Below are positions 8,801 to 53,670 of a stretch of DNA of 64,000 bases, piece after piece (positions within the stretch are counted from its first letter, which is position 1; each line of letters opens with the position of its first letter). Under the pieces are notes generated by a model. The model had not been told where the DNA came from. It worked only from the letters and a program-made list of their open reading frames with translations, and ran no database searches. Source of the stretch: Cloeon dipterum (Eukaryota; Arthropoda; Insecta; Ephemeroptera; Baetidae); the NCBI RefSeq assembly GCF_949628265.1, contig NC_088789.1, positions 22,437,883 through 22,501,882 of the forward strand. Reading direction: 5' to 3'. Made by a program: the position numbers and the translations under genes.

Positions 8801-11800
8801 TCGTAGAAAGCAAGTCCAAGCTCTAGGGCGGCCAGCGGCCGACCCTGTCTGGCCACATGATCTATTCGTTCATTCCACGTACGCATGTGCAAAGCGTGCA
8901 CGGAGCGGGTGCCCACCAAAAGAAGTTGCTGGCCGAGACTGACCACTGTGTTGTAGCAGGCACGCTCGCCGGCAGCCACCTGAAAAGATTTTCATTTTTA
9001 AATTCTTTCCGAGACTGATATTTTAATAATATTTTTGAGGTGTTTAAAATGCTCTTTAATTTTTATTTTAAAAGCTGACCTAGCCATTAATAATAACTAC
9101 AACTTAATTAAGCTGTATTATTGTTTTAACTGTCTCTTATTTTTTTATTTTACTGTAATTTGCATATAAATAAATTAAATAAGTAAATCCTCATCGTACA
9201 AGCGCTTTGCTGACGTTGCCGCCAGTGGCAATGGCTTTGAAGTGGCTGGACGCGAATACAAGTCTAGCTGAGGACACGTCGAGCGTTTCCACCTCAGTCT
9301 GCGAGCGCACGTCTATCACGTGGACGTGCTCCCGTGTGTCCAGCACGGCGAGCGTGCGGGCGTTCAGCCAGTGCAGACTCAGCATCTGGAAGGAGAGCTG
9401 CGAGCGGTGGAGCAGCGTGGCTCGCGCCCGTCCACCACCATCCACTCCAACCTAATATATAAATGACAAAATAATAGATAACATTGTATTAACTTGACGG
9501 AAAATTTAAACTATATCACCCACCAATATCTGGTATTTAGGGACTGCATAGTAAAGTAAAAAAATGGCACATGGATCGCGAAATTGAGTCTGCCTTTAAA
9601 AATCAATCGTAACGATTGAACGAATACTTGCATTATTTTCCGATAATACAAATATGATTTCTGCGGAAAGTACCATAAGGATTTTATTCATTCTAAGCTC
9701 GGGATTTCCGGAATTCACTAAAATCATTGAATTAAAAATAAGTCGCTTGGATACAGGGCTGAAGAATAAGAATTAATGTTTTTTTGCTGGTTTATTCCTT
9801 TCTGCACGAAAAAACAGTTAAAAAATACGACAAAACTAATTAGAGCCCTGAGAAATTTTGGTTACCTGGTAAAAGAAGAGTGCGCGATCGCGTCCAAAGG
9901 CGAGGACGGGGTCGACGACGCGCGAGTGGTCGGCCACCTGGATGAGCACCATCTGCCAAGCGAGCAGCGGCAGCGAGTCGGCACGCGCGGGCAACGCGTG
10001 CGTCAGGACGACCTTAGTGCGGGGCCGCGTCTGTACCACGATCACCTTGCTCAGGGTGGCCATAGCGAGCAGGGAGTGCGCCTCGAGCGGGTGCTGCCCG
10101 CCGAGTGGCGCCAACAACAACGGCTCCAGGGCCACCACCTCGCCGCGTGCCCCTGAAAACAGGCATCGTGCCTCGCAGCCTCGCACCCCCAATACCCGCT
10201 TGAAGGCCAGTTCAAACACCGAGCCACCTGAGTCGCTGCACAGCGCCAGGGCTGACGAGTCGGTAAACTGAAACAAAAGGAAAAGTATTTTATGATTCGA
10301 AATTAATTTTTTAAAAAATATATCATCTTTCAAACCTCTGGAATAATTAATTTAATATACTTTTTTCGACATATAAAGCTGAAAAGTTTGTTTTGTTTGG
10401 TTATCATTACGTAAACAATGCCACATTCATTGTTGGTATTGTTGCACTGTCGCCAACAATCAAACCAAGGTTATATATAGAGGTTACAATCGGGAAACAA
10501 TTCAAACACTGCGAACTCCTGGAACAGTGCACTACTCTCCTGCTCAGAACGCCACGATGAGAACCACGATCGCCCTGACGATGATGCTGCTCTGCACCCT
10601 CTACGAGATCGACGCCCGATGGCCCCCAGAAGACCAGGACACAAGGATAGACCCCCAATGGACCCCAGAAGACCAAGGAAACGATGAGTATTTGACCTCA
10701 GACACTAGACACGACCGAACCCTGACAAACCCCCGACGACGCACTTGGCGCACCTCCCCACCAGCAACTAGCTACAACTCCCACCCCTGGAATAACCCCC
10801 GAAAACTCTACCAAAATGACGAACTCCCTCTGCCCCCGACAAACCAACTAAGAACTCGGCGACGGGCTCAGACCCAACGAGGCCAGCAGCGACGCCCCCG
10901 AACCGAGACAAGGCCCGAACACCCACGCCACCTCCCTCGCAGGGAAAGAAACCAGCCCCCACGGCCCCTAAACAATCCCCAACGCCCCCGCAGGCGACAG
11001 ACAATGCTGACAATCACTCGCCCAAACACCCAGAACGACAACAGACAGCCCCGAAAAGTCGGCAGACGCCCCCTGCCCCCAACAAACACCCGACGCCGCA
11101 ACTGGCGCACCTCCCCACCAGCAAATAGCTACAAATCCCACCCTTGGAACAACCCCCGAAAACTCTACCAAAATGACGAACTCCCTCTGCCCCCGACAAA
11201 CCAACTAAGCACTCGGCGACGGGCTCAGACCCAACGAGGCCAGCAGCGACGGCCACGAACCGAGACACAGCCCAAACACCCACGCCGCCTCCCTCGCAGG
11301 GAAAGAAACCAACCCCCACGGCCCCTAAATAATCCCCAAAGACCCCGCAGGCGACAGACAATGCTGACAATCACTCGCCCAAAGACCCGGAACGACAACA
11401 GAGAGCCCCGAAAAATCGGCAAACGCCCTCTGCCCCCAACAAACTTCCGCCGCCGCCAGCGGAAACAGACTGAGCCCCAAAAAGGCCGGCAACGAACCCA
11501 ACCCCCACAAAAACGAATCACGCGCCCAAAGACCTGGAAGCCCAGGGGTCGCCACCAACCTCTCGGGACGACCAAGCCCCCACAGCCACAGCCCCTCACC
11601 AAAAATCCTGAAACCAAAACGAAACTCCCGCCCCAACCCACCACCGAACCTCCACAAACCCAACAACAAGCACCCCCGACAATCCTCGAACGCCTTCGAA
11701 CCCTGAGGAATAAGCTTCACCTCCACAACCCGGCCACAATTATCCACACTGAACTTTAACACTGAATAAAAACTTCTTCTTGAATTAAAACAAAAAAACA

Positions 11801-13346
11801 TTTAATTCAGCCCTCTCCCTAGAAAAAGAAAAAATATAATAAAAGAAAATAAATATTTCGGTTTGGCAATATCATTTTAAATTGATACACACATTTTCGT
11901 TAAAATATTAAATTAATTTCTATTCATCGAATTTGTGATCAAAGAATTTTTAATTTTAAAAATGCTAACAAAGCCAATCAATTGCATGGTAATTTTAATT
12001 GTTTTGTAAGGAATTGTTAGGTTATATCATTTATAATCAATGCCAAATTCATTGTTGGTGGTTGTTGCACTGGCGCTAACAATCAAACCGAGGTTAAAAT
12101 AAAAAACAATTCAAACAGAGCGATTGTTACCCACCTACAATGAGCATGGTTGTTGTTTGCGTAATGCTGTATCACAATAAACCTCTTCTAAGTTTGCTTT
12201 ATTTAAGGTTTCTTTTATGTGCGAATGACGCAATCAGAAATCGTCTAAAGCCAATTAGTTTGAATAAAATACTGCGAAGAACCTGTACAGAAGTAAAAAT
12301 TTAAATCCATTAAAAGATACATGCAAAATATTAAGTCTGCAGAGGACAAGAAATCAAAATTATTATTGATCACAAAAACAACAAGAAAAATCAGGTTTCG
12401 CGTTTAATTTAAAAACGAGAAAACACAAAACAATTTCATAAATGCTCACTGGCTCAAATCCATAGTTTAAAAATAAATTAAAACACCCAGTCAAAAGCAA
12501 AAACTTACCTTGACGTGCAACACAGCTGTAGCAGGTGCGTGGGCGTCAGTGAGGGTGCGTAGCAGGCGGCCGTCTTTCATGTCAAACATGCGAATGAGTC
12601 CCTTGTCGTGGCCGACGAGTAGGCGGCCGCCGTCCCCAGAAGCGGCCAGGCAGGTGACGGCGCCGGCACCTTCAGCAGCCTCCAGAAGGAAACGCAGCTT
12701 CTGCGTCGCATCGAACATGAGCACGGCGCCGTGCGAGGTGCCAACGCACACACACCCGCCGCCCCCGCACGCCGCCGTCGCAGTTCCGGCGCCCGATCGC
12801 TCCTGAGAACCGAAAATTTAAGACAGAACTCGGATTGTGGTAAGCAGTTTTCTCACAGCGGCGGCGTTGATCTGCGTGGTGAGGCCCTTGAGCACGACGT
12901 GGCGCAGCACGTTACCTGAGGCGCTGGAACGGCCCATGGGACTCGCCCGCCGACCCCTCGAACTCCTGCTTCGCCCCTCTGACGAGCATTGTGAGCTAGT
13001 TTCCAGGCCGACCTGAAAATGGACCAATTTTAAATGTGTTAGGAAAGACGAGCGACGCACCTCTGGCGCGAGAAGAAACGGCGGCTGTGACCCTTCCTCA
13101 GGGTCGCTGTCGTGGCCTTCGTCATCGTTCAGGATGCTCTCCAGGGACGGAGGCACTGTCACGGGTGGAATGTCAAATTCAGTGTCATCAAGCTGCACGA
13201 ATTTAAAAATAAATTTAGCTCTTATTTAGTGAAGATGACGTTTTCAAAGCTTTTTTCAATTTAACCTCATCCAAGTCGAGATCTAGCGCGTCAGCTGTCC
13301 GTTCGGCGTCACCTTCGGCCTTTCCAGGAGCGTCCGAGTCGGCCAT
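2890..13346 (-). CDS. VPS8: VPS8, CORVET complex subunit
   Basis: CORVET-specific subunit that binds Rab5 and tethers early endosomes. I place 18 coding exons (minus strand): 13266-13346, 13061-13192, 12857-13012, 12509-12802, 9866-10267, 9200-9451, 8731-8979, 8217-8504, 7524-7826, 7209-7291, 6998-7148, 6674-6933, 5734-6190, 5530-5643, 5120-5309, 4545-4679, 4247-4469 and 2890-3112. All junctions are GT-AG and in phase, giving about 1330 residues (human VPS8 is about 1430). The N-terminus is acidic. Exons 3-6 read as a WD40-type propeller (VGTSHGAVLMFD, LLVGHDKGLIRMFD). The family signature LLQFDTREFLNVLAL lies in exon 11 and the helical repeats continue with VVREYGQVEAEAHLLE. A C-terminal RING is split between exons 17 and 18 (CSRCDAPL ... 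ACGHALHCSC ... CPLC). Intron 4 (10268-12508) contains an unrelated gene on the other strand. Confidence 0.93.
3113..4246 (-). other. VPS8 intron 17
   Basis: This 1.13-kb AT-rich intron splits the RING domain. The donor is GTAAGT at 4246-4241 and the acceptor CAG at 3115-3113. I see no gene or clear repeat in it. Confidence 0.7.
10388..10515 (+). promoter_or_regulatory. TATA promoter of the nested secreted-protein gene
   Basis: A TATATATAG box at 10472-10480 lies 77-85 bp upstream of the ATG at 10557. The block contains ATTCATTGTTGGT, TGTTGCACTG and AACAATCAAACC. All of these recur 1.6 kb downstream (12000-12122), where the TATA box is missing. The gene therefore seems to have its own promoter inside the VPS8 intron. 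Confidence 0.6.
10557..11759 (+). CDS. Secreted Arg/Pro-rich repetitive protein, nested in a VPS8 intron
   Basis: Single-exon gene of 400 codons, antisense to its host gene. I chose the ATG at 10557 because a typical signal peptide follows immediately (MRTTIALTMMLLCTLYEIDA). The mature chain has no Cys and is dominated by Arg, Pro, Gln, Asn and Thr, so it is very basic. After a short acidic stretch come two near-identical 119-residue units (codons at 10726-11082 and 11083-11439). Each contains WRTSPPA, NNPRKLYQNDELPLPPTN, RRRQTMLTITRP and ends in a Gly-dibasic site (KVGRRPLPP, then KIGKRPLPP). A Pro/Thr/Gln-rich tail closes the protein. The coding strand is rich in A and C, unlike VPS8 exons. 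I do not recognise the family. The signal peptide, dibasic sites and basic composition suggest a processed peptide precursor, possibly antimicrobial, but a structural or glandular secreted protein is equally possible. Confidence 0.8.
   Translation: MRTTIALTMMLLCTLYEIDARWPPEDQDTRIDPQWTPEDQGNDEYLTSDTRHDRTLTNPRRRTWRTSPPATSYNSHPWNNPRKLYQNDELPLPPTNQLRTRRRAQTQRGQQRRPRTETRPEHPRHLPRRERNQPPRPLNNPQRPRRRQTMLTITRPNTQNDNRQPRKVGRRPLPPTNTRRRNWRTSPPANSYKSHPWNNPRKLYQNDELPLPPTNQLSTRRRAQTQRGQQRRPRTETQPKHPRRLPRRERNQPPRPLNNPQRPRRRQTMLTITRPKTRNDNREPRKIGKRPLPPTNFRRRQRKQTEPQKGRQRTQPPQKRITRPKTWKPRGRHQPLGTTKPPQPQPLTKNPETKTKLPPQPTTEPPQTQQQAPPTILERLRTLRNKLHLHNPATIIHTEL
10726..11439 (+). repeat. Two tandem 357-bp coding units
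   Basis: Unit 1 is about 10726-11082 and unit 2 about 11083-11439. The offset is exactly 357 bp (119 codons), with only scattered substitutions. The duplication keeps frame, and few differences have accumulated, so it looks recent or homogenised. Confidence 0.85.
11765..11770 (+). terminator. Poly(A) signal of the nested gene
   Basis: AATAAA lies 6 bp past the stop codon at 11757-11759, on the same strand. This gives the nested gene an almost absent 3' UTR and a self-contained transcription unit. Confidence 0.6.
12000..12122 (+). pseudogene. Decayed promoter copy of the nested gene
   Basis: This block aligns with 10388-10515: both carry CAATGCC, ATTCATTGTTGG, GTTGCACTG, AACAATCAAACC and AACAATTCAAACA. 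The segment holding the TATA box is deleted or altered (GAGGTTAAAATAAAA). A 54-codon frame starts at ATG 12140 just downstream but lacks the Arg/Pro-rich sequence. I read it as the remnant of a second tandem copy. Confidence 0.5.
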
Positions 13347-14692: not shown

Positions 14693-16601
14693 ATGTCAAG
14701 TGCCGGCCACTGCATGATTTTCGCCAAATCCGAGTCCCAGACCATTGGATTCCCCTCGAAAGCCATCGTCCTGGTAATTAAAATTAAATACTCCAAATTC
14801 GATCGACGATTGAATTGACAAATTCTTGTGCAGATGCAGATGCGGTTTGACGGGAAGCTAGGCTTCGCGGGCGGCATCATCGAGGCGGAGGACGAGAGCG
14901 TCGAGGCTGGCATCGGCCGCGAGATGCTCGAGGAGATGGGCATTGACCCGGCGGTGTACCCACTCAGCAAGGAAGACCACGTCTCTTCGCAGCCCTTCCA
15001 CTGCGACACCCTGCCCCAAGTCAAAGCGCTTCACTTCTACGCGCTGGAAGTCACGGAGGCGCAAATCGCTGAAATCGAGAACAACGCTAGGAATGCCATT
15101 CATTACGGCGAAGAGGTTTGATTTTTTTATGGCTTTTTGAATTAAATTGATGGCCTTTAAGTGCTAAAATTTTAGGACAATCGTCAATATTTAAGAATTT
15201 ATATGAGACAACAATTGAAAAATGAACCCAAACTTAAAGTAATTATTTTTAAAGAGGAATAATACTGCAAAAGCCTGGGAAATGCTTGTTGCCAATGCAT
15301 AAACTCGTCCCTTAGGATTCAGTTAAAGTCTAAATTGACCTAGGAAGCACTGTAATTTTTCGAGAAAATTGGCTGGAAAGTTACCGTGCTTTTCAAATGG
15401 CAATGGCTGTCTCCTTACTTGAAATCCGATTTAATTTCAAAACCAAGAGTTTCCCCAATAAGTGGCATACACCGTTGAACAGATCTCGACGAGAGGAATC
15501 GGAATATGCCAAGAAAATATGTTCGAGCACTGTAAATTTTGGAGAAAATTGGCAAAATTTGAATTTTTATTGTAGGAAGGTCATTTTTTTATTATTGCAA
15601 ATTGTTGAACAAATTGTTTATCGGTCAATTGTTTAAGGCATCCAACAATTTAAATAATTTTCAATTGTTGCCCAGTATCATTCCACTTTAAATCAAGTCA
15701 AATTTTTCTAAATTAATATTTACCCCTAAAAACAACCTTTATGTACTGAAAAATTCTTAAAAATGTTTTGTCGTTACCTAAAATAGTCTTTAAAAATTGG
15801 GGAAGAGCTGAAATTCCCCAGGTTGCAGTTTAAATTTCTGAGAAAATTGGCTACGAAGGGTACTTGCTAATCAAGCGGCGAGCACTGTCTCCTTTTTGGT
15901 GAAAGTCAGGATTTATTTTGCGAAAAGGTAAATTTACCTCTAAATTCGCACACCGTTGGATAGATCTAGACGATAGGGATAAAAAACAAGCGAAAAATAG
16001 TAGGACTTTCTAGCCATTGATTTTTTTTTCAAGTACAAGATAAAAATTGAACCGTAAAAAAATTGTAGAGCTGAATTACTTTTTGTAGAGATGAATCACA
16101 TTCAATGAGTCAATTTTAATGATATAGTCAACATTGCAAAATGCCATTAATTGCTTGGAAAAATTATAAATAATTAAAGACCAGGCATTATGAACGCTAT
16201 CGATTTGGATGATTCCCTTTGCAGTTCAGTAAAGTAGCGAGATAATTGAAATACGGCATCAATACTGTTTTACAGCAGATAAAAACTTTTAAAATATTTA
16301 TTTCTGTAATGTATTCTTTTTGGAACGAATTTTGTACCGCAAGTTTAATTAAACAATCGACTTTTTCATTCTAAAAAGGCATTGAAAGATTTAAATAATT
16401 TTTCGACAGGTGTTGGGCTGGGTGCGAGTGCCTCTGTACACAATGACGGACGGCTACAACGGCTTCCCAGCGTTCTTGGACAACAACTTCGTGGGCAACG
16501 CCCGAGATCAGCTATTAGAGGCACTGATCAAGACCGGCCTCATGACCAAGGAAGAAATTGATTCAGCTGTGAAAGTCGCAAAGTTCTCCAAAAATCAATG
16601 A
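14693..16601 (+). CDS. NUDT16: NUDT16-like Nudix hydrolase
   Basis: Three exons: 14693-14773, 14834-15115 and 16410-16601, all GT-AG and in phase, 184 residues. NUDT16 enzymes remove nucleoside diphosphate caps (U8 snoRNA decapping) and hydrolyse (d)IDP or de-ADP-ribosylate; the precise substrate is inferred from the family. The strand MQMRFDGKLGFAGGIIE leads into the Nudix box (G-x5-E-x7-REMLEEMGI; glutamates of REMLEEMG). The C-terminal part VLGWVRVPLYTMTDGYNG FPAFL and FVGNARDQLLEAL closely matches the NUDT16 family, as does the length (human about 195). The N-terminus (MSSAGHCMIFAKSESQ) is shorter than in human. Intron 2 is 1.3 kb and filled by interspersed repeats. Confidence 0.9.
15251..15690. 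mobile_element. Interspersed MITE, family A, copy 1 (in Nudix intron 2)
   Basis: A roughly 440-bp element, nearly identical to 51841-52277 over its whole length (for example CCAATAAGTGGCATACACCG and GCCAAGAAAATATGTTCGAG are shared). The ends are inverted: AAAGAGGAATAATACTG on the left and the complement of AAAGTGGAATGATACTGGG on the right, both next to TTAA. It has no coding capacity. Degenerate relatives lie at 15829-16012, 51595-51835, 56165-56410 and 63795-63990. Confidence 0.7.
15829..16012. repeat. Degenerate family A copy
   Basis: It shares GAGAAAATTGGCTA, GCACTGTCTCCTT and a CACCGTTGGATAGATCTAGACGA-like block with the intact family A elements, but the ends are lost. Confidence 0.45.
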
Positions 16602-30101: not shown

Positions 30102-33100
30102 TTATGAATGAAAAATCGAGGCACCGAATGATAAAAACCGGTCAATGATGTTCTTTGTAGCAAAATTTGTTGAATTACTGCTGCAATTATTCTGCACATA
30201 ATTATAATCCTCCATTGACACCGGGGGATTCAGTCCCGTGCACGTCCAGTAATCATCAGTGGCCTCTGAATTTGTGACGCGATTCTGTGGATTTGAATAA
30301 TTTAAAGATCAAATTAAATTATTTGCAATCGATCGTGCACATACCTCTGTCAGGAAAAAAATCACAGCAAAGCAAAACAATAAAGCCGTAAATGCCATGA
30401 GGGTGAAGCCTGAGTATATAAATAGGCGGGTCCTATCTTGTCGTCTAGGGGTCAGGGCAAAATCAATCAACATTTTGCCGAGCGTAGAATCGCATCGAGG
30501 GTATTTTGGTCTATTTCCAGGCGAAATAATTAATAAAAAATCGATAAGTCACGAAAAAATAGTACCTAGCCATTAACTCGCTGAACCAGTTGAGCTTCTT
30601 GGCCTGCATGCCCTTCTGATTAGTGAAGGTGAGGTAGGAGCTGTGGCCGTGGTACTTTGGTCCCATGCCGCTGGCGCCAACCCCTCCAAAGGGCAAGTCT
30701 TCAATGCCCGAGTAAACGATGCATTCGTTGATGCTGAGTGCACCGCCGTACGTGCTCCGACGGAATAGCTCGTGCGTGGCCGCGGTTTCGCTGAAGAGGT
30801 AGACGACCAGTGGCTTGTCCCTCGCCCTGATGAAGCGTACTGCCTCCTCGGCACTCTCCACGCACACCACGGGAAGGATTGGCCCGAAAATCTCCGCCTG
30901 CATCAGGGTGTCGTCCTGCGGCACGTCTACCACCAGGGTTGGCGACACCCATTGCCGATCGGCATCCACATCGCCCCCAAATACCACGCGACCTTTGGTG
31001 CCACTCAGCATTTTCTCCAGCCGCCTGCAAATTGAATTTTATTTGCAAAGCAATTTCAAATTTGACATAGCAATTAGGCTAAAAAAATTAGGATATTTAA
31101 GATGATTTTTGTGATTTCTGTTGAATGATGTCTATGGCCTAACGGTTACTTGGTTAAAAGAATTTGATATTTAGATTTCATATTTTAGTAAAAACTTTCA
31201 TCCATGAGTTTTAGGAAAATAATAAATAATCCCATTTTTGATAATTATAAATTTTCTTTCGTTCGTTCAATTTTTTTGTCTCTCGTACTTAACGTGTTCC
31301 TTGTTGACTATCTTTCCCAAATCCTCCGATTGCATCATGTCATCCGTGAAAAACTGCTGCATGGTTTCTTGAAAGTGCGTCACGAATTTGTCTCGAGTTC
31401 GCGGAGTGCAGAGGATATAGTCAGGCGCCATGCACATTTGGCCAACATTGACCGTTTTGGCGTAAGCGATCCTCTTCACGGCCGTATCAAAGTTTTTAAT
31501 ATGCTCGTCGAGGAATACCGGACACTTGCCACCCATTTGGATGGAGGAGGGCGTCATTTGGCGGGCAGCGGCCGCGGCAACGACCCGCCCTGTCTCGTTG
31601 GAGCAAGTCGCGAAAATGTAGTCAAACTTGTTCTCGAGCAGCTCTTGCGTTCCGGCCGCGTCGGCTAAAACCACTTTGAAGCATTCCTGAAAATTTTTTT
31701 GTGCATGAAGTTTTACCCTCCGGCTTTATCTGGTTTTTTCATACCGGGTCAAGGTACTTGGGAACGAGACTTGCAATGAGGGCCGACGTCTGTGGTGTGA
31801 GATGCGAGGGCTTCAGGACTACGCAGTTTCCAGACGCAATTGCACCGTGCAGGGGAATGGAGATCAGCTTCAGGGGGTAGTTGTACGGGCCGATGATGAG
31901 CACCACCCCCAGCGGCTCGTTGATAAGTCGAACGTCGTCAAAAAAGTACATGATATTTTTGTATGGCTGTAAAAGAAAAGCCGTGATAAAACAGACTGGA
32001 ATTTAAAAAAAATCATGTCCACTGTTTAAAACTCAGGGGTTGGTTGTGTTTCTCAATATTTGATAAATACGACACCAATTAAAATATTTCATGCGAGTAA
32101 ATGTTAGTCATTTATGTGGTAGGAATCGAATGCTAATGGACCATTTAATGAGTTATTACACAAGTTAAAAAATAAAATGTCTTTTGATTGAGAAAGCGTC
32201 TCGATTAAAATATATCTCAATCCAAGAGAGAACAGGTTTGATAAATATTATTGTGTTTACCGCTTTGATGAACCAACACACGAAAATCAAGGTTGCACAT
32301 TTCATTTCATAGGCGATCGGTGGCAATGACTAGAGGTCTCAGCCGCGAGATTTAAGGCGGTGGCTGGCCATTTTTATTGACGATAAATTTTGTTTAATTA
32401 ACAATATTTTAAACGTGATGTTTGTTAGCGCTTAACGGCTGGAAGGGCCGGAAAACATTTTATTCTCCTGCACTTTTGTATTTTTGATCCTTTTTCACCG
32501 GCAGCTGGCGGCTGCCCTCGTTACAAAAATTTTGCTGGCTCTATATATGCAGCAATGACCAATACCGTGGGAAAACCCCAAACTTCCTACTCCCCGTGAC
32601 TTATATTATGCAACCTACATGTGACCAAATCGCAAAGCAATTAAGTTTCGTAATTCCTTTGATGATATATTCGAAAGTTAAAAATTTTTCATTCGTAAAA
32701 GAAAGGATTTATTTGGCAGTTTTAATGTTCTTTAATTACAGCCTTGTTTTGTTTATTCGCATCTGATTTTGAGTCAATCTCGCATCAATTATTTGCATTG
32801 CGACAAGTATAAATTGCCACTACTTGCTGTAAAATTTTGGGATCGCTGATTGCTCCAAATTTCCCATTTGATTTAATCCGTAGATTCGTGTGGCACCTAG
32901 CATAGCACACGGGCCGCTTGTGCACATGCGTCCGTGTGCTTCTTGCGCTCCAAAGCGAGCAGGCAGCATGCTTAATATTAGAGACTAATATTGCGACGAA
33001 AGGGCAATGTTGCAAGGAAAATTAAAATTTCGGAATTTTTCCCTTCTTGCCTTTTTTGATCACCTCAAGTAACCCTCGACCCACTTATATGCACCGATCG

Positions 33101-35449: not shown

Positions 35450-38400
35450 TACCCGTCTCGCGCGACGCCCTACCCGTCCCGCGTGACTCCGGGACGCCCT
35501 ACCCGTCCCGCGTGACTGCGGGACGCCCTACCCGTCCCGCGTGACTGCGTGTAGCAACAGACTTGATTGCGAAAATTGTGCTCAAACTGATGGCGAAAAA
35601 ATGCACCAAACTTGTGAGGGAGGAGGAAGAAATGGAAGTCCTGATGCTCCCAGCCCTTAGCCTCTTCCTCGCCATGAGGCCTGCAAAAATTGATCTAACC
35701 GCCTTTCTTACGTTTTGTCCGATGAGTCTGAAATGTCGGTATTTCAAAGAGGTAACTGTAACAAAATAATAAATTCATCTTTAAATTTAAAAAATAATGT
35801 TTTTGGCGGTGATTCGAATCTCTGCAAAGAACCCAGAGGTGGAGGAGTTGTCTCTGGCCACCCTTGCAAATCGATTCTTCCTCACAATTGATACAGTAGC
35901 CGATGCTGAGCTTTTGGATGTTCTGGGAACTGCGGGACGCCATACCCGTCCCGCGTTACTGCGGGACGCCATACCCGTCCCGCGTGCTGGCGGGACGCCA
36001 TACCCATCCCGCGGGACGCCCTACCCGTCCCGCGTGACTGCGGGACGCCCTACCCGTCCCGCGTGCTTGCGGGACGCCATACCCGTCCCGCGGGACGCCC
36101 TACCCGTCCCGCGTGACTGCGGGACGCCCTACCCGTCCCGCGTGCTTGCGGGACGCCATACCCGTCCCGCGTGACTGCGGGACGCCCTACCCGTCCCGCG
36201 GGACGCCCTTCCCGTCCCGCGTGACTGCGGGACGCCCTACCCGTCCCGCGGGACGCCCGACCCGTCCCGCGTGACTGCGGGACGCCATACCCATCCCGCG
36301 GGACGCCCTACCCGTCCCGCGTGACTGCGGGACGCCCTACCCGTCCCGCGTGACTGCAGGACGCCCTACCCGTCCCGCGTGACTGCAGGACGCCCTACCC
36401 GTCCCGCGTGACTGCGGGACGCCATACCCGTCCCGCGTGACTGCGGGACGCCCTACCCGTCCCGCGTGCTTGCGGGACGCCATACCCGTCCCGCGGGACG
36501 CCCTACCCGTCCCGCGTGACTGCGGGACGCCCTACCCGTCCCGCGTGCTTGCGGGACGCCATACCCGTCCCGCGGGACGCCCTACCCGTCCCGCGTGACT
36601 GCGGGACGCCCTACCCGTCCCGCGTGACTGCGGGACGCCCTACCCGTCCCGCGTGCTTGCGGGACGCCATACCCGTCCCGCGTGACTGCGGGACGCCATA
36701 CCCATCCCGCGGGACGCCCTACCCGTCCCGCGTGACTGCGGGACGCCCTACCCGTCCCGCGTGCTTGCGGGACGCCCTACCCGTCCCGCGTGACTGCGGG
36801 ACGCCATACCCATCCCGCGGGACGCCCTACCCGTCCCGCGTGACTGCGGGACGCCCTACCCGTCCCGCGTGCTTGCGGGACGCCATACCCGTCCCGCGGG
36901 ACGCCCTACCCGTCCCGCGTGACTGCGGGACGCCATACCCGTCCCGCGTGCTTGCGGGACGCCATACCCGTCCCGCGTGACTGCGGGACGCCATACCCAT
37001 CCCGCGGGACGCCCTACCCGTCCCGCGTGACTGCGGGACGCCCTACCCGTCCCGCGTGCTTGCGGGACGCCATACCCGTCCCGCGGGACGCCCTACCCGT
37101 CCCGCGTGACTGCGGGACGCCATACCCATCCCGCGGGACGCCCTACCCGTCCCGCGTGACTGCGGGACCCCCTACCCGTCCCGCGTGCTTGCGGGACGCC
37201 ATACCCGTCCCGCGTGACTGCGGGACGCCCTACCCGTCCCGCGGGACGCCCTTCCCGTCCCGCGTGACTGCGGGACGCCCTACCCGTCCCGCGGGACGCC
37301 CGACCCGTCCCGCGTGACTGCGGGACGCCATACCCATCCCGCGGGACGCCCTACCCGTCCCGCGTGACTGCGGGACGCCCTACCCGTCCCGCGTGACTGC
37401 AGGACGCCCTACCCGTCCCGCGTGACTGCAGGACGCCCTACCCGTCCCGCGTGACTGCGGGACGCCATACCCGTCCCGCGTGACTGCGGGACGCCCTACC
37501 CGTCCCGCGTGCTTGCGGGACGCCATACCCGTCCCGCGGGACGCCCTACCCGTCCCGCGTGACTGCGGGACGCCCTACCCGTCCCGCGTGCTTGCGGGAC
37601 GCCCTACCCGTCCCGCGTGACTGCGGGACGCCATACCCATCCCGCGGGACGCCCTACCCGTCCCGCGTGACTGCGGGACGCCCTACCCGTCCCGCGTGCT
37701 TGCGGGACGCCATACCCGTCCCGCGTGACTGCGGGACGCCATACCCATCCCGCGGGACGCCCTACCCGTCCCGCGTGACTGCGGGACGCCCTACCCGTCC
37801 CGCGTGCTTGCGGGACGCCATACCCGTCCCGCGGGACGCCCTACCCGTCCCGCGTGACTGCGGGACGCCATACCCATCCCGCGGGACGCCCTACCCGTCC
37901 CGCGTGACTGCGGGACGCCCTACCCGTCCCGCGTGCTTGCGGGACGCCATACCCGTCCCGCGGGACGCCCTACCCGTCCCGCGTGACTGCGGGACGCCAT
38001 ACCCGTCCCGCGTGCTTGCGGGACGCCATACCCGTCCCGCGTGACTGCGGGACGCCATACCCATCCCGCGGGACGCCCTACCCGTCCCGCGTGACTGCGG
38101 GACGCCCTACCCGTCCCGCGTGCTTGCGGGACGCCATACCCGTCCCGCGGGACGCCCTACCCGTCCCGCGTGACTGCGGGACGCCATACCCATCCCGCGG
38201 GACGCCCTACCCGGCCCGCGTGACTGCGGGACGCCCTACCCGTCCCGCGTGCCTGCGGGACGCCATACCCGTCCCGCGTGACTGCGGGACGCCCTACCCG
38301 TCCCGCGGGACGCCCTTCCCGTCCCGCGTGACTGCGGGACGCCCTACCCGTCCCGCGGGACGCCCGACCCGTCCCGCGTGACTGCGGGACGCCACACCCA

Positions 38401-39414
38401 TCCCGCGGGACGCCCTACCCGTCCCGCGTGACTGCGGGACGCCCTACCCGTCCCGCGTGACTGCAGGACGCCCTACCCGTCCCGCGTGACTGCAGGACGC
38501 CCTACCCGTCCCGCGTGACTGCGGGACGCCATACCCGTCCCGCGTGACTGCGGGACGCCCTACCCGTCCCGCGTGCTTGCGGGACGCCATACCCGTCCCG
38601 CGGGACGCCCTACCCGTCCCGCGTGACTGCGGGACGCCCTACCCGTCCCGCGTGCTTGCGGGACGCCATACCCGTCCCGCGGGACGCCCTACCCGTCCCG
38701 CGTGACTGCGGGACGCCCTACCCGTCCCGCGTGACTGCGGGACGCCCTACCCGTCCCGCGTGCTTGCGGGACGCCATACCCGTCCCGCGTGACTGCGGGA
38801 CGCCATACCCATCCCGCGGGACGCCCTACCCGTCCCGCGTGACTGCGGGACGCCCTACCCGTCCCGCGTGCTTGCGGGACGCCATACCCGTCCCGCGGGA
38901 CGCCCTACCCGTCCCGCGTGACTGCGGGACGCCATACCCATCCCGCGGGACGCCCTACCCGTCCCGCGTGACTGCGGGACGCCCTACCCGTCCCGCGTGC
39001 TTGCGGGACGCCATACCCGTCCCGCGGGACGCCCTACCCGTCCCGCGTGACTGCGGGACGCCATACCCATCCCGCGGGACGCCCTACCCGTCCCGCGTGA
39101 CTGCGGGACGCCCTACCCGTCCCGCGGGACGCCCGACCCGTCCCGCGTGACTGCGGGACGCCCTACCCATCCCGCGGGACGCCCTACCCGTCCCGCGTGA
39201 CTGCAGGACGCCCTACCCGTCCCGCGTGACTGCGGGACGCCCTACCCGTCCTGCGGGACTGCGGGACGCCCTACCCGTCCCGCGTGCTTGCGGGACGCCA
39301 TACCCGTCCCGCGTGACTACGGGACGCCCTACCCATCCCGCGGGACGCCCTACCCGTCCCGCGTGACTGCGGGACGCCCTACCCGTCCCGCGCGACGCCC
39401 TACCCGTGCTAAAC
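35450..39414. repeat. GC-rich minisatellite of 29-bp and 21-bp hairpin units
   Basis: The basic unit is GGGACGCCCTACCCGTCCCG plus CGTGACTGC or CGTGCTTGC (29 bp), mixed with 21-bp units lacking the spacer. Each unit contains GCGGGACG and CGTCCCGC, an 8-bp perfect inverted pair around a 7-nt loop. Higher-order structure is visible: long blocks recur at an offset of 1064 bp (for example 36919 and 37983, 37559 and 38623). It is very CpG-dense against an AT-rich background. A unique 385-bp insert interrupts it near the left end (35549-35933). Confidence 0.92.
35549..35933. other. Unique insert within the minisatellite
   Basis: Non-repetitive sequence flanked by ACTGCG on both sides. On the plus strand two open segments (to about 35754, and from about 35797) are separated by an AT-rich stretch bounded by GAG|GTAACT and TGCAAAG, which looks like a small intron. 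Neither peptide (VREEEEMEVLMLPALSL; VEELSLATLANRFFLTIDT) is recognised. It may be a captured gene fragment or the progenitor sequence of the element. Confidence 0.4.
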
Positions 39415-52277: not shown

Positions 52278-53670
52278 ATTTTGGATTGTAGCCATTAAAT
52301 GTTAAAACTTTCAACTTTTGCCTCGTATTATTCCACTTTTTTAAATTTACGCGGTGGTAATTTGTTTTGCTGTCCAAAAATTAAGCAGAGCAGGACAAAA
52401 CTTTCGAGTAAATTATAAAAAAAACATGGTGCATTGTGACTAATTGCGAGAGTAAAAAAAATATGAAATTGAATTTTGAACTGCCTAAACCACCTACAAA
52501 ATTTCACAGCTGAACATGAACAATTTTTTGAGCTTCTCCAATCATTACAAATTTGCACCCCCGATCGGAATCAGAATGTGGCGGGAGAATGTTGAATAAT
52601 TTAATATTTTTAGTTTAAAGAAGAATAATAATCATTTTAATTCTTTAATGTCCAATGCCGGTCGGTAGCTAAATAATCAAATAAAACTATTTAAATGAGT
52701 TAAAAATACATGGCAAAACAAAAAAACGTGGTGCTCTTAAAAAAATCGACAATGCCTTTTTAAGAAAAAAAAAATAATTAAAACAAATAATTTTTTTTCT
52801 TCTTTTACAAATTTCTAGATATCCTTTTTAGACTTAAATTTAAATAAAAAGAAAAAATTATAAATCGAGCACTCAGTCTCTCGTTTCATTTGTGTTCTGG
52901 TTTACTCTGCACATTAAGCTTTGGATTATTTGATAGGGAGTCTGTTGACACGCTTAACGCAAATCTCCACTTTGAATTACGACTATTTGAATAAAATGTT
53001 TTCCCTTGCACCAATGACTAATGGTTGACAAACACGCAATCTCTTTTGAAATAATATATCTTTTAGAAAAAAAATGAAAGAGTCTTAACGATGACGTGTG
53101 TGCACCGCATTGCCTGGAATTTAACACAATTTGTAGAAAAGCAGTGTTTGAGCGGAGAAAAGGCAGGATGCTTGTTCCCCTGGAGGTGTTAATTGTGCCT
53201 GATGTGGTCGCGAGCGCTCTCACAAACCTGGTCTATTTAGCCGTTGCTAATTGAGCCACGTTCCGCGTCCAGACACCCTTCAAGCTGGAATTTTTTCGCC
53301 ATAAACAAGGTGTACAAAAATGACAAGTAGTACAGTGTCGCTTTCAAAATAACAAGAGAGAAAGAAAAAATGCGGCTAATCAGCAGCAAAAACAATTGTG
53401 TGGAAAGAAGTGGAGACACGTTTTGAGAAAATTTCCGCGTGCCTGAAAACAAAGCGAGTGTCGAGGCGGCGGCGGCGTCGCCGGCGAGAGGGTGTTTGCT
53501 CAAGAGTTTAGAGATGCCACGGCGATGCGTCGTGTCGTTCGTTGGTCTCGCCTGCGATAAAGGTGTTTGGTTTGAGTCGAGCCATAAAGAGAGCAACTCC
53601 ATGACAGTGTGTTCCGAACTCTACTGTCGACGGATAGCTCTCTTGAAGGCACTGACTGAACTCTTCTTTT

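Follow-up and report, generated by a model that had tools for sequence, protein, structure and literature searches.

A family of predicted secreted, Arg/Pro-rich repeat proteins in Cloeon dipterum with one member nested in a VPS8 intron

Two exons of a minus-strand VPS8 gene are found in the window (the whole stretch of 64,000 nucleotides of Cloeon dipterum DNA that was analyzed), and the intron between them holds a gene on the opposite strand. The match to the VPS8 beta-propeller domain is contiguous across this intron, continuing from position 118 of the domain to position 119, and thus the intron splits the domain between consecutive positions. The nested reading frame is preceded by a TATA box and followed closely by a poly(A) signal (Table 1). 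Its openness does not merely reflect A/C-rich sequence, since frame 2 of this strand is interrupted there by 13 stops and frame 3 by 12, while frame 1 stays open in six family members, the window gene among them; it is a real intron-nested gene. T is rare in the frame (5, 12, and 9% at codon positions 1, 2, and 3), and its rarity at every position suggests an A/C-rich transcript that is likely to be little structured. Codon choice is mixed (CGA for 22 of 73 Arg codons and CAA for 21 of 38 Gln codons) and appears to give no plain sign of a very abundant product.

Table 1. Features at the nested gene (window positions) and the loci of its family (contig and position)
Feature	Position	Strand	Description and basis
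VPS8 exon 3' of host intron	9869..10267	-	Pfam PF23410 Beta-prop_VPS8 positions 119-251, E 2e-52
VPS8 host intron	10268..12508	-	2241 bp, GT-AG, phase 0; borders read from sequence and domain match
VPS8 exon open frame 5' of host intron	12509..12817	-	Pfam PF23410 Beta-prop_VPS8 positions 17-118, E 9e-32
Promoter P	10390..10556	+	conserved, five AACAAT/ATTGTT motifs, 5'UTR included; family alignment
TATA box, TATATA	10472..10477	+	85 nt 5' of ATG (distance 85-88 nt in the remaining 5 intact genes); sequence reading
Coding sequence	10557..11759	+	400 codons, ATG to TAA, intronless; translation and 6 intact family ORFs
Signal peptide, residues 1-20, MRTTIALTMMLLCTLYEIDA	10557..10616	+	read by eye; cleavage predicted by eye after EIDA-20
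Residues 21-59	10617..10733	+	net charge -6 in the window protein; charge count
Repeat unit 1	10707..11063	+	357 nt, 119 aa; self-comparison
Constrained block of unit 1, RR-TWRTSPPATSYNSHPWNNP-RK	10737..10805	+	residues 61-83; unit alignment, pN/pS
VGRR	11058..11069	+	followed by Pro; translation
Repeat unit 2	11064..11420	+	357 nt, 119 aa, likeness continuing to ~11456; self-comparison
Constrained block of unit 2, RR-NWRTSPPANSYKSHPWNNP-RK	11094..11162	+	residues 180-202; unit alignment, pN/pS
IGKR	11415..11426	+	followed by Pro; translation
Poly(A) signal, AATAAA	11765..11770	+	starts six bases past the stop; also close 3' of the stop in other intact members
P', second promoter-like copy	12011..12160	+	TATA lost, AACAAT cluster kept; DNA search and alignment
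Window gene	C4:22.448		400 aa, two units, intact
"22.77"	C4:22.767		518 aa, three units, intact
"17.47"	C4:17.473		396 aa, two units, intact
"C2a"	C2:12.655		271 aa, one unit, intact
Two C5 genes	C5:5.721 and C5:5.729		250 aa each, one unit each, intact
Further copies	C2:12.656, C2:21.508, C2:21.519		decayed or truncated

The window gene is not unique but a member of a small scattered family. A search of the genome (190.1 Mb, 10 contigs) with the DNA and protein sequences, the promoter, and the products of two paralogs as queries found at least nine loci on three contigs of 33 to 37 Mb, six of them intact and three decayed or truncated; this count does not include two weak places, C4:20515221 (E 0.077) and C5:31412539 (E 7.66). 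The intact reading frames span 250 to 518 amino acids and contain one to three units, and the two 357-nt units of the window gene are 91% alike over 300 nt. In the flanks of the other copies, partly read by eye, no host exon was recognized. The window protein had no match in Pfam, where the best match among the six members was to an unrelated family (E 0.24), and the family had none in NCBIfam. A profile search of PDB gave weak matches only, at E 0.029 and 0.89, to ribosome-related proteins of basic character, and none of the 4 pattern matches in viral contigs or the 40 in prokaryote genome contigs was confirmed as a relative. Literature searches on mayfly antimicrobial peptides and on the family itself found no account of it among the papers listed. 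This would be a secreted-protein family without a recognized relative in a mayfly, which belongs to a lineage close to the base of the winged insects.

The signal peptide is clear by eye and is conserved in the six intact members, with its 20 codons showing 0 to 6 nonsynonymous differences per pair. The mature part of the window protein contains 19% Arg, 17% Pro, and no Cys, and it has a net charge of +62. Five of the six members are alike in this respect (Arg, 18 to 19%; Pro, 16 to 17%; no Cys); the C2a protein has six Cys and 12% Arg. Across all six, the mature parts carry net charges of +39 to +84, Thr (9 to 12%) is below both Arg and Pro, and Gly accounts for 2 to 4%; judged by composition, the products are probably disordered. 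The segment that follows the signal peptide is acidic in all three C4 proteins (-6 and -3 in the two besides the window protein) but has a positive charge in the remaining members, the C5 pair and C2a (+1, +1, and +3), and a conserved acidic propiece as a family-wide trait was rejected. An initial annotation had described an intronless 400-codon gene with its own TATA box and poly(A) signal, antisense within a VPS8 intron, and coding for a signal peptide, a mature part of extreme Arg/Pro content without Cys, and two 119-residue units of a family that it did not recognize; all of these points held up, the signal peptide on reading by eye.

The upstream element of the gene is shared by the family and accompanies the copies. 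All seven promoter copies examined contain 4 to 6 AACAAT/ATTGTT motifs, which we take to be Sox-like, compared with a mean of 0.13 to 0.18 in base-shuffled copies; since the copies are homologous, this enrichment counts as one event and not as seven. TATATA is present in six of the seven and missing from the decayed C2:12.656. A DNA search with the element returned 11 places, 8 of them promoters and 3 P' copies, and alignment raised the P' copies to six, located 3' of the window gene, 22.77, 17.47, both C5 genes, and the decayed second C2 gene. C2a has no P' of its own; the next element 3' of it is this neighbor's promoter, so that the C2 tandem consists of two genes and three elements. The TATA box is gone in five of the six P' copies (that of 22.77 retains a TATATAA stretch), and each P' differs from the P of the same gene; thus, P' is an old duplicate. 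For the same reasons, an LTR-like element formed by P and P' as direct repeats was rejected, and inspection by eye showed no target-site duplication. Because P, gene, and P' recur in this arrangement across the copies, the whole cassette looks like the copied unit, reaching here from about 10390 to 12166. When the seven downstream regions (six P' regions and the C2a-C2b spacer) were aligned, identity was 0.86 to 0.90 in the element core, 0.68 to 0.83 in most of the spacer, and 0.82 to 0.85 in the first 60 columns past the stop. The core of P' is better conserved than most of the preceding spacer, and P' could be an enhancer. A second ATTGTT/AACAAT cluster is found at window positions 15600 to 15670, where there is no gene of the Arg/Pro family.

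Pairwise comparison of the six intact genes gave dN/dS values of 0.47 to 0.64 with bounds below 1 for seven pairs. These were the window gene with 22.77 (0.47; bootstrap, 0.30 to 0.87) and with each C5 gene (0.48; upper bounds, 0.68 and 0.69), 22.77 with the C5 genes (0.52 to 0.53), and 17.47 with the C5 genes (0.61 to 0.64). Another seven pairs had values of 0.79 to 1.08 and bounds above 1: the window gene with 17.47 (0.80), 22.77 with 17.47 (0.95), and the five pairs with C2a (0.79 to 1.08). The two C5 genes (0.25; upper bound, 1.36) are too close to each other to tell. These ratios bear on whether the family is a dispersing cassette that has lost most or all of its function, the copies of which are open only because they are young. 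The three decayed loci among nine, the repeats P and P', which could seed recombination, and C2a, which by its dN/dS, its six Cys, and its lower Arg content may be drifting, all agree with such a history. However, the bounded ratios of the window gene with 22.77 and both C5 genes, together with the retention of the frame, the TATA position, and AATAAA in all six intact genes, speak against it, and we give this explanation very little credence.

Constraint is concentrated on the signal peptide, on a C-terminal stretch outside the units (positions 323 to 348, where 20 of 26 are invariant across the six members), and on one block per unit. Across the ten units that these genes contain, this block has the consensus RR-[TN]WRxSPPAxxYxSHPWNN-RK, with a pN of 0.066 and a pS of 0.200 versus 0.186 and 0.187 in the other 86 gap-free columns (pN/pS, 0.33 for the block versus 0.99 for the rest of the unit). 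Twelve pairs of columns are dibasic in at least three of the ten units, and only the two that bracket the block are dibasic in all ten. When columns were shuffled, the lowest 21-column window was matched in 3.3% of 3,000 trials with all ten units and in 3.7% with the nine that remain when C2a is left out. When four genes contributed one unit each, the figure was 26%, and another window, at column 64, was the lowest. The block is therefore a fair lead and not proof.

Two Gly-dibasic sites, VGRR and IGKR, are present in the window protein as the initial annotation had claimed, but its reading of them as amidation and cleavage signals was not supported. Insect precursors of amidated peptides carry a conserved, cleavable Gly-dibasic site at the end of each peptide, while the whole family here has seven such sites, all in the three C4 genes and none in C2a or either C5 gene. 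The dibasic pair is followed by Pro in six of the seven and by Ser in one, and Pro in this position usually blocks convertases. Nor are two such triplets surprising in the window protein, since its mature part contains 27 dibasic pairs and 6% of 5,000 shuffles reached two or more Gly-dibasic sites. Amidated Gly-dibasic peptides were thus rejected as the best reading. From the earlier interpretation as a whole, the nested gene, the signal peptide, and the unrecognized family remain, and the idea of a processed precursor survives only in a different form, as the 19-residue core between the RR and RK that are kept in every unit.

In that form, convertases would cut at the bracketing RR and RK and release one Trp/Pro/Asn-rich peptide, [TN]WRxSPPAxxYxSHPWNN[PL], from each unit, with the rest serving as spacer. 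The invariance of the bracketing pairs, neither of which precedes Pro, and the low pN/pS of the block are what such a polyprotein would be expected to show, although the signal is lost in the four-gene shuffle test. RK is a poor convertase site, the core is only weakly charged (+1 or +2), and the C-terminal stretch is conserved as well without having such brackets. In addition, the window protein has 20 dibasic pairs that end a run, 16 of which lack a following Pro, so that free cutting would shred it. We consider this polyprotein unlikely. The fuller proposal, a new class of insect peptide polyprotein that frees a 19-mer at RR/RK and whose gene spreads as a cassette between two AACAAT-cluster elements, with one copy in the intron of a housekeeping gene, is a little less probable still. 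A released 19-mer would represent a new type of insect peptide.

A cationic, proline-rich host defense protein or precursor, acting in the mode of proline-rich antimicrobial peptides (PrAMPs) or of myticalins, is suggested by the Arg/Pro content, the conserved signal peptide, and the presence of both intact and decayed copies in a multigene family. Mussel myticalins follow the same general recipe in the part of PMC5577615 used here, being multigene, with a conserved signal peptide, a cationic Pro/Arg region, and a segment of opposite charge, the last of which is found in only part of our family. However, the anionic part of myticalins forms a C-terminal extension that follows a KR site, and their genes have a phase 1 intron, while the acidic segment here is N-terminal and confined to the C4 genes, and there is no intron. 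By the definition in Box 1 of PMC7736402, as far as that source was available, PrAMPs have at least 25% Pro, a net charge of at least +1, and antimicrobial activity with an intracellular target (DnaK or the 70S ribosome). The charges of mature parts and cores lie within this range; however, the Pro content of the mature parts is only 14 to 17% in the six members, that of the cores is 16 to 21% in eight of ten units and 26% in the two C5 units, and PRP occurs one to three times per protein. The apidaecin-type polyproteins in the consulted part of PMC11549390 share the Pro/Arg content and a varying number of repeats with the family. They are built from an 18-residue peptide ending in PRPPHPRL and a short RREAEPEAEP-like spacer, and on reading the window protein, which has 119-residue units, we found neither of these elements. 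In the kilobase upstream of each intact gene, we found no strict kappaB motif and, in the six regions together, a single relaxed one, located 893 bases before 17.47. Because so short a length of AT-rich DNA would contain few matches by chance, this argues only weakly against immune control. Overall, a host defense role seems quite improbable to us.

The reading that we prefer, with somewhat less than even confidence, is an orphan secreted polycation that is probably disordered and would remain mostly intact, resembling a glue or matrix protein of a glandular, cuticular, or egg coat secretion, with the number of units as its valency; we rank it above a precursor of the 19-residue core. The TATA promoter with its AACAAT cluster would drive a short intronless transcript, and the signal peptide would send the product into the secretory path. 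Outside the cell, the highly charged protein would then work mostly intact, its Arg residues and the few conserved Trp and Tyr residues of the block binding polyanions and one another. Such contacts may lead to coacervation and yield a coating, a gel, or a glue-like secretion, with the one to three units setting the number of contacts. The family would grow by copying of the promoter-gene-P' cassette in tandem and to distant sites, the VPS8 intron among them.

Several observations agree with an intact polycation. The frame is kept in all six intact genes of the nine loci, seven pairs have dN/dS bounded below 1, Gly-dibasic sites are absent outside C4, and the upstream regions lack strict kappaB motifs. 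In the bulk of the unit, pN is about equal to pS while composition is steady, which fits a disordered polymer, although divergence is small. Against an intact polycation, the strongest constraint within the unit falls on a short block inside invariant dibasic pairs, as a peptide precursor would show; seven pairs have dN/dS of 0.79 to 1.08; N-terminal acidity is confined to the C4 genes; aromatic residues are few; codon usage is mixed; and the glue precedent is partial. If the protein does act intact, it would offer materials research a new Arg/Pro polycation.

Nested genes for secreted products have precedents. An intron of Drosophila Gart contains a pupal cuticle gene on the opposite strand, resembling the window gene in its secreted product, its orientation, and its housekeeping host; its product is a cuticle protein, and we claim no sequence relation. 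The best parallels are the nested Drosophila glue and new glue (ng) genes and an Arg/aromatic tick cement protein. According to the part of PMC10835880 drawn on here, Sgs4 and the intronless, signal peptide-encoding ng genes sit in an intron of dunce, and Sgs3e sits in an intron of Mob2; high turnover is reported there for Sgs3b, Sgs7, and Sgs8 and not for Sgs3e, and no functional study ties the ng genes to glue. The family described here shares with these genes a signal peptide (read by eye), repeat or low-complexity products, the intronless state (ng and Sgs4), multiple copies (ng), and nesting in an intron. However, ng products are Thr-rich and short, while ours are Arg/Pro-rich and strongly basic with a moderate Thr content; the Sgs/ng class is defined by sequence homology and by salivary gland expression before metamorphosis, and the parallel drawn here is one of gene organization and type of product. 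In the tick, as described in the portion of PMC11794139 consulted, a secreted glue protein with an acidic N terminus phase-separates via Arg and aromatic residues. This cement protein, GRP77, resembles what is predicted for the C4 proteins in being secreted and disordered, and it has, as they do, an acidic N terminus with Arg and aromatic residues further on; it is Gly-rich, and its relatives contain 9 to 20% aromatic residues, compared with 3.4 to 6.1% in our family. The locus would then exemplify an effector- or glue-like gene that is copied with its own control element and settles in an intron.

Elsewhere in the window, we noted a Nudt16-like NUDIX exon at 14819 to 15121 (plus strand; E 3e-25), an aldehyde dehydrogenase exon at 30514 to 31011 (minus strand; E 2e-20), and a microRNA precursor of the mir-46/mir-47/mir-281 family at 53574 to 53658 (minus strand; 66.6 bits). 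A 3.5-kb GC-rich minisatellite at 35929 to 39407 is made of interleaved 21-, 29-, 50-, and 79-base units and contains three plus-strand ORFs of 154 to 175 amino acids. In the genome, no run of five TTAGG was found, and COX1 was matched only weakly and in pieces; for C. dipterum, PMC8977481 reports that no TTAGG repeat was identified, PMC6446309 gives 2n = 10, and PMC7250882 describes a 180-Mb assembly. At the start of contig C4 (1 to 8000), a 72-base satellite fills the first 8 kb, and contig C2 starts with other AT-rich repeats.
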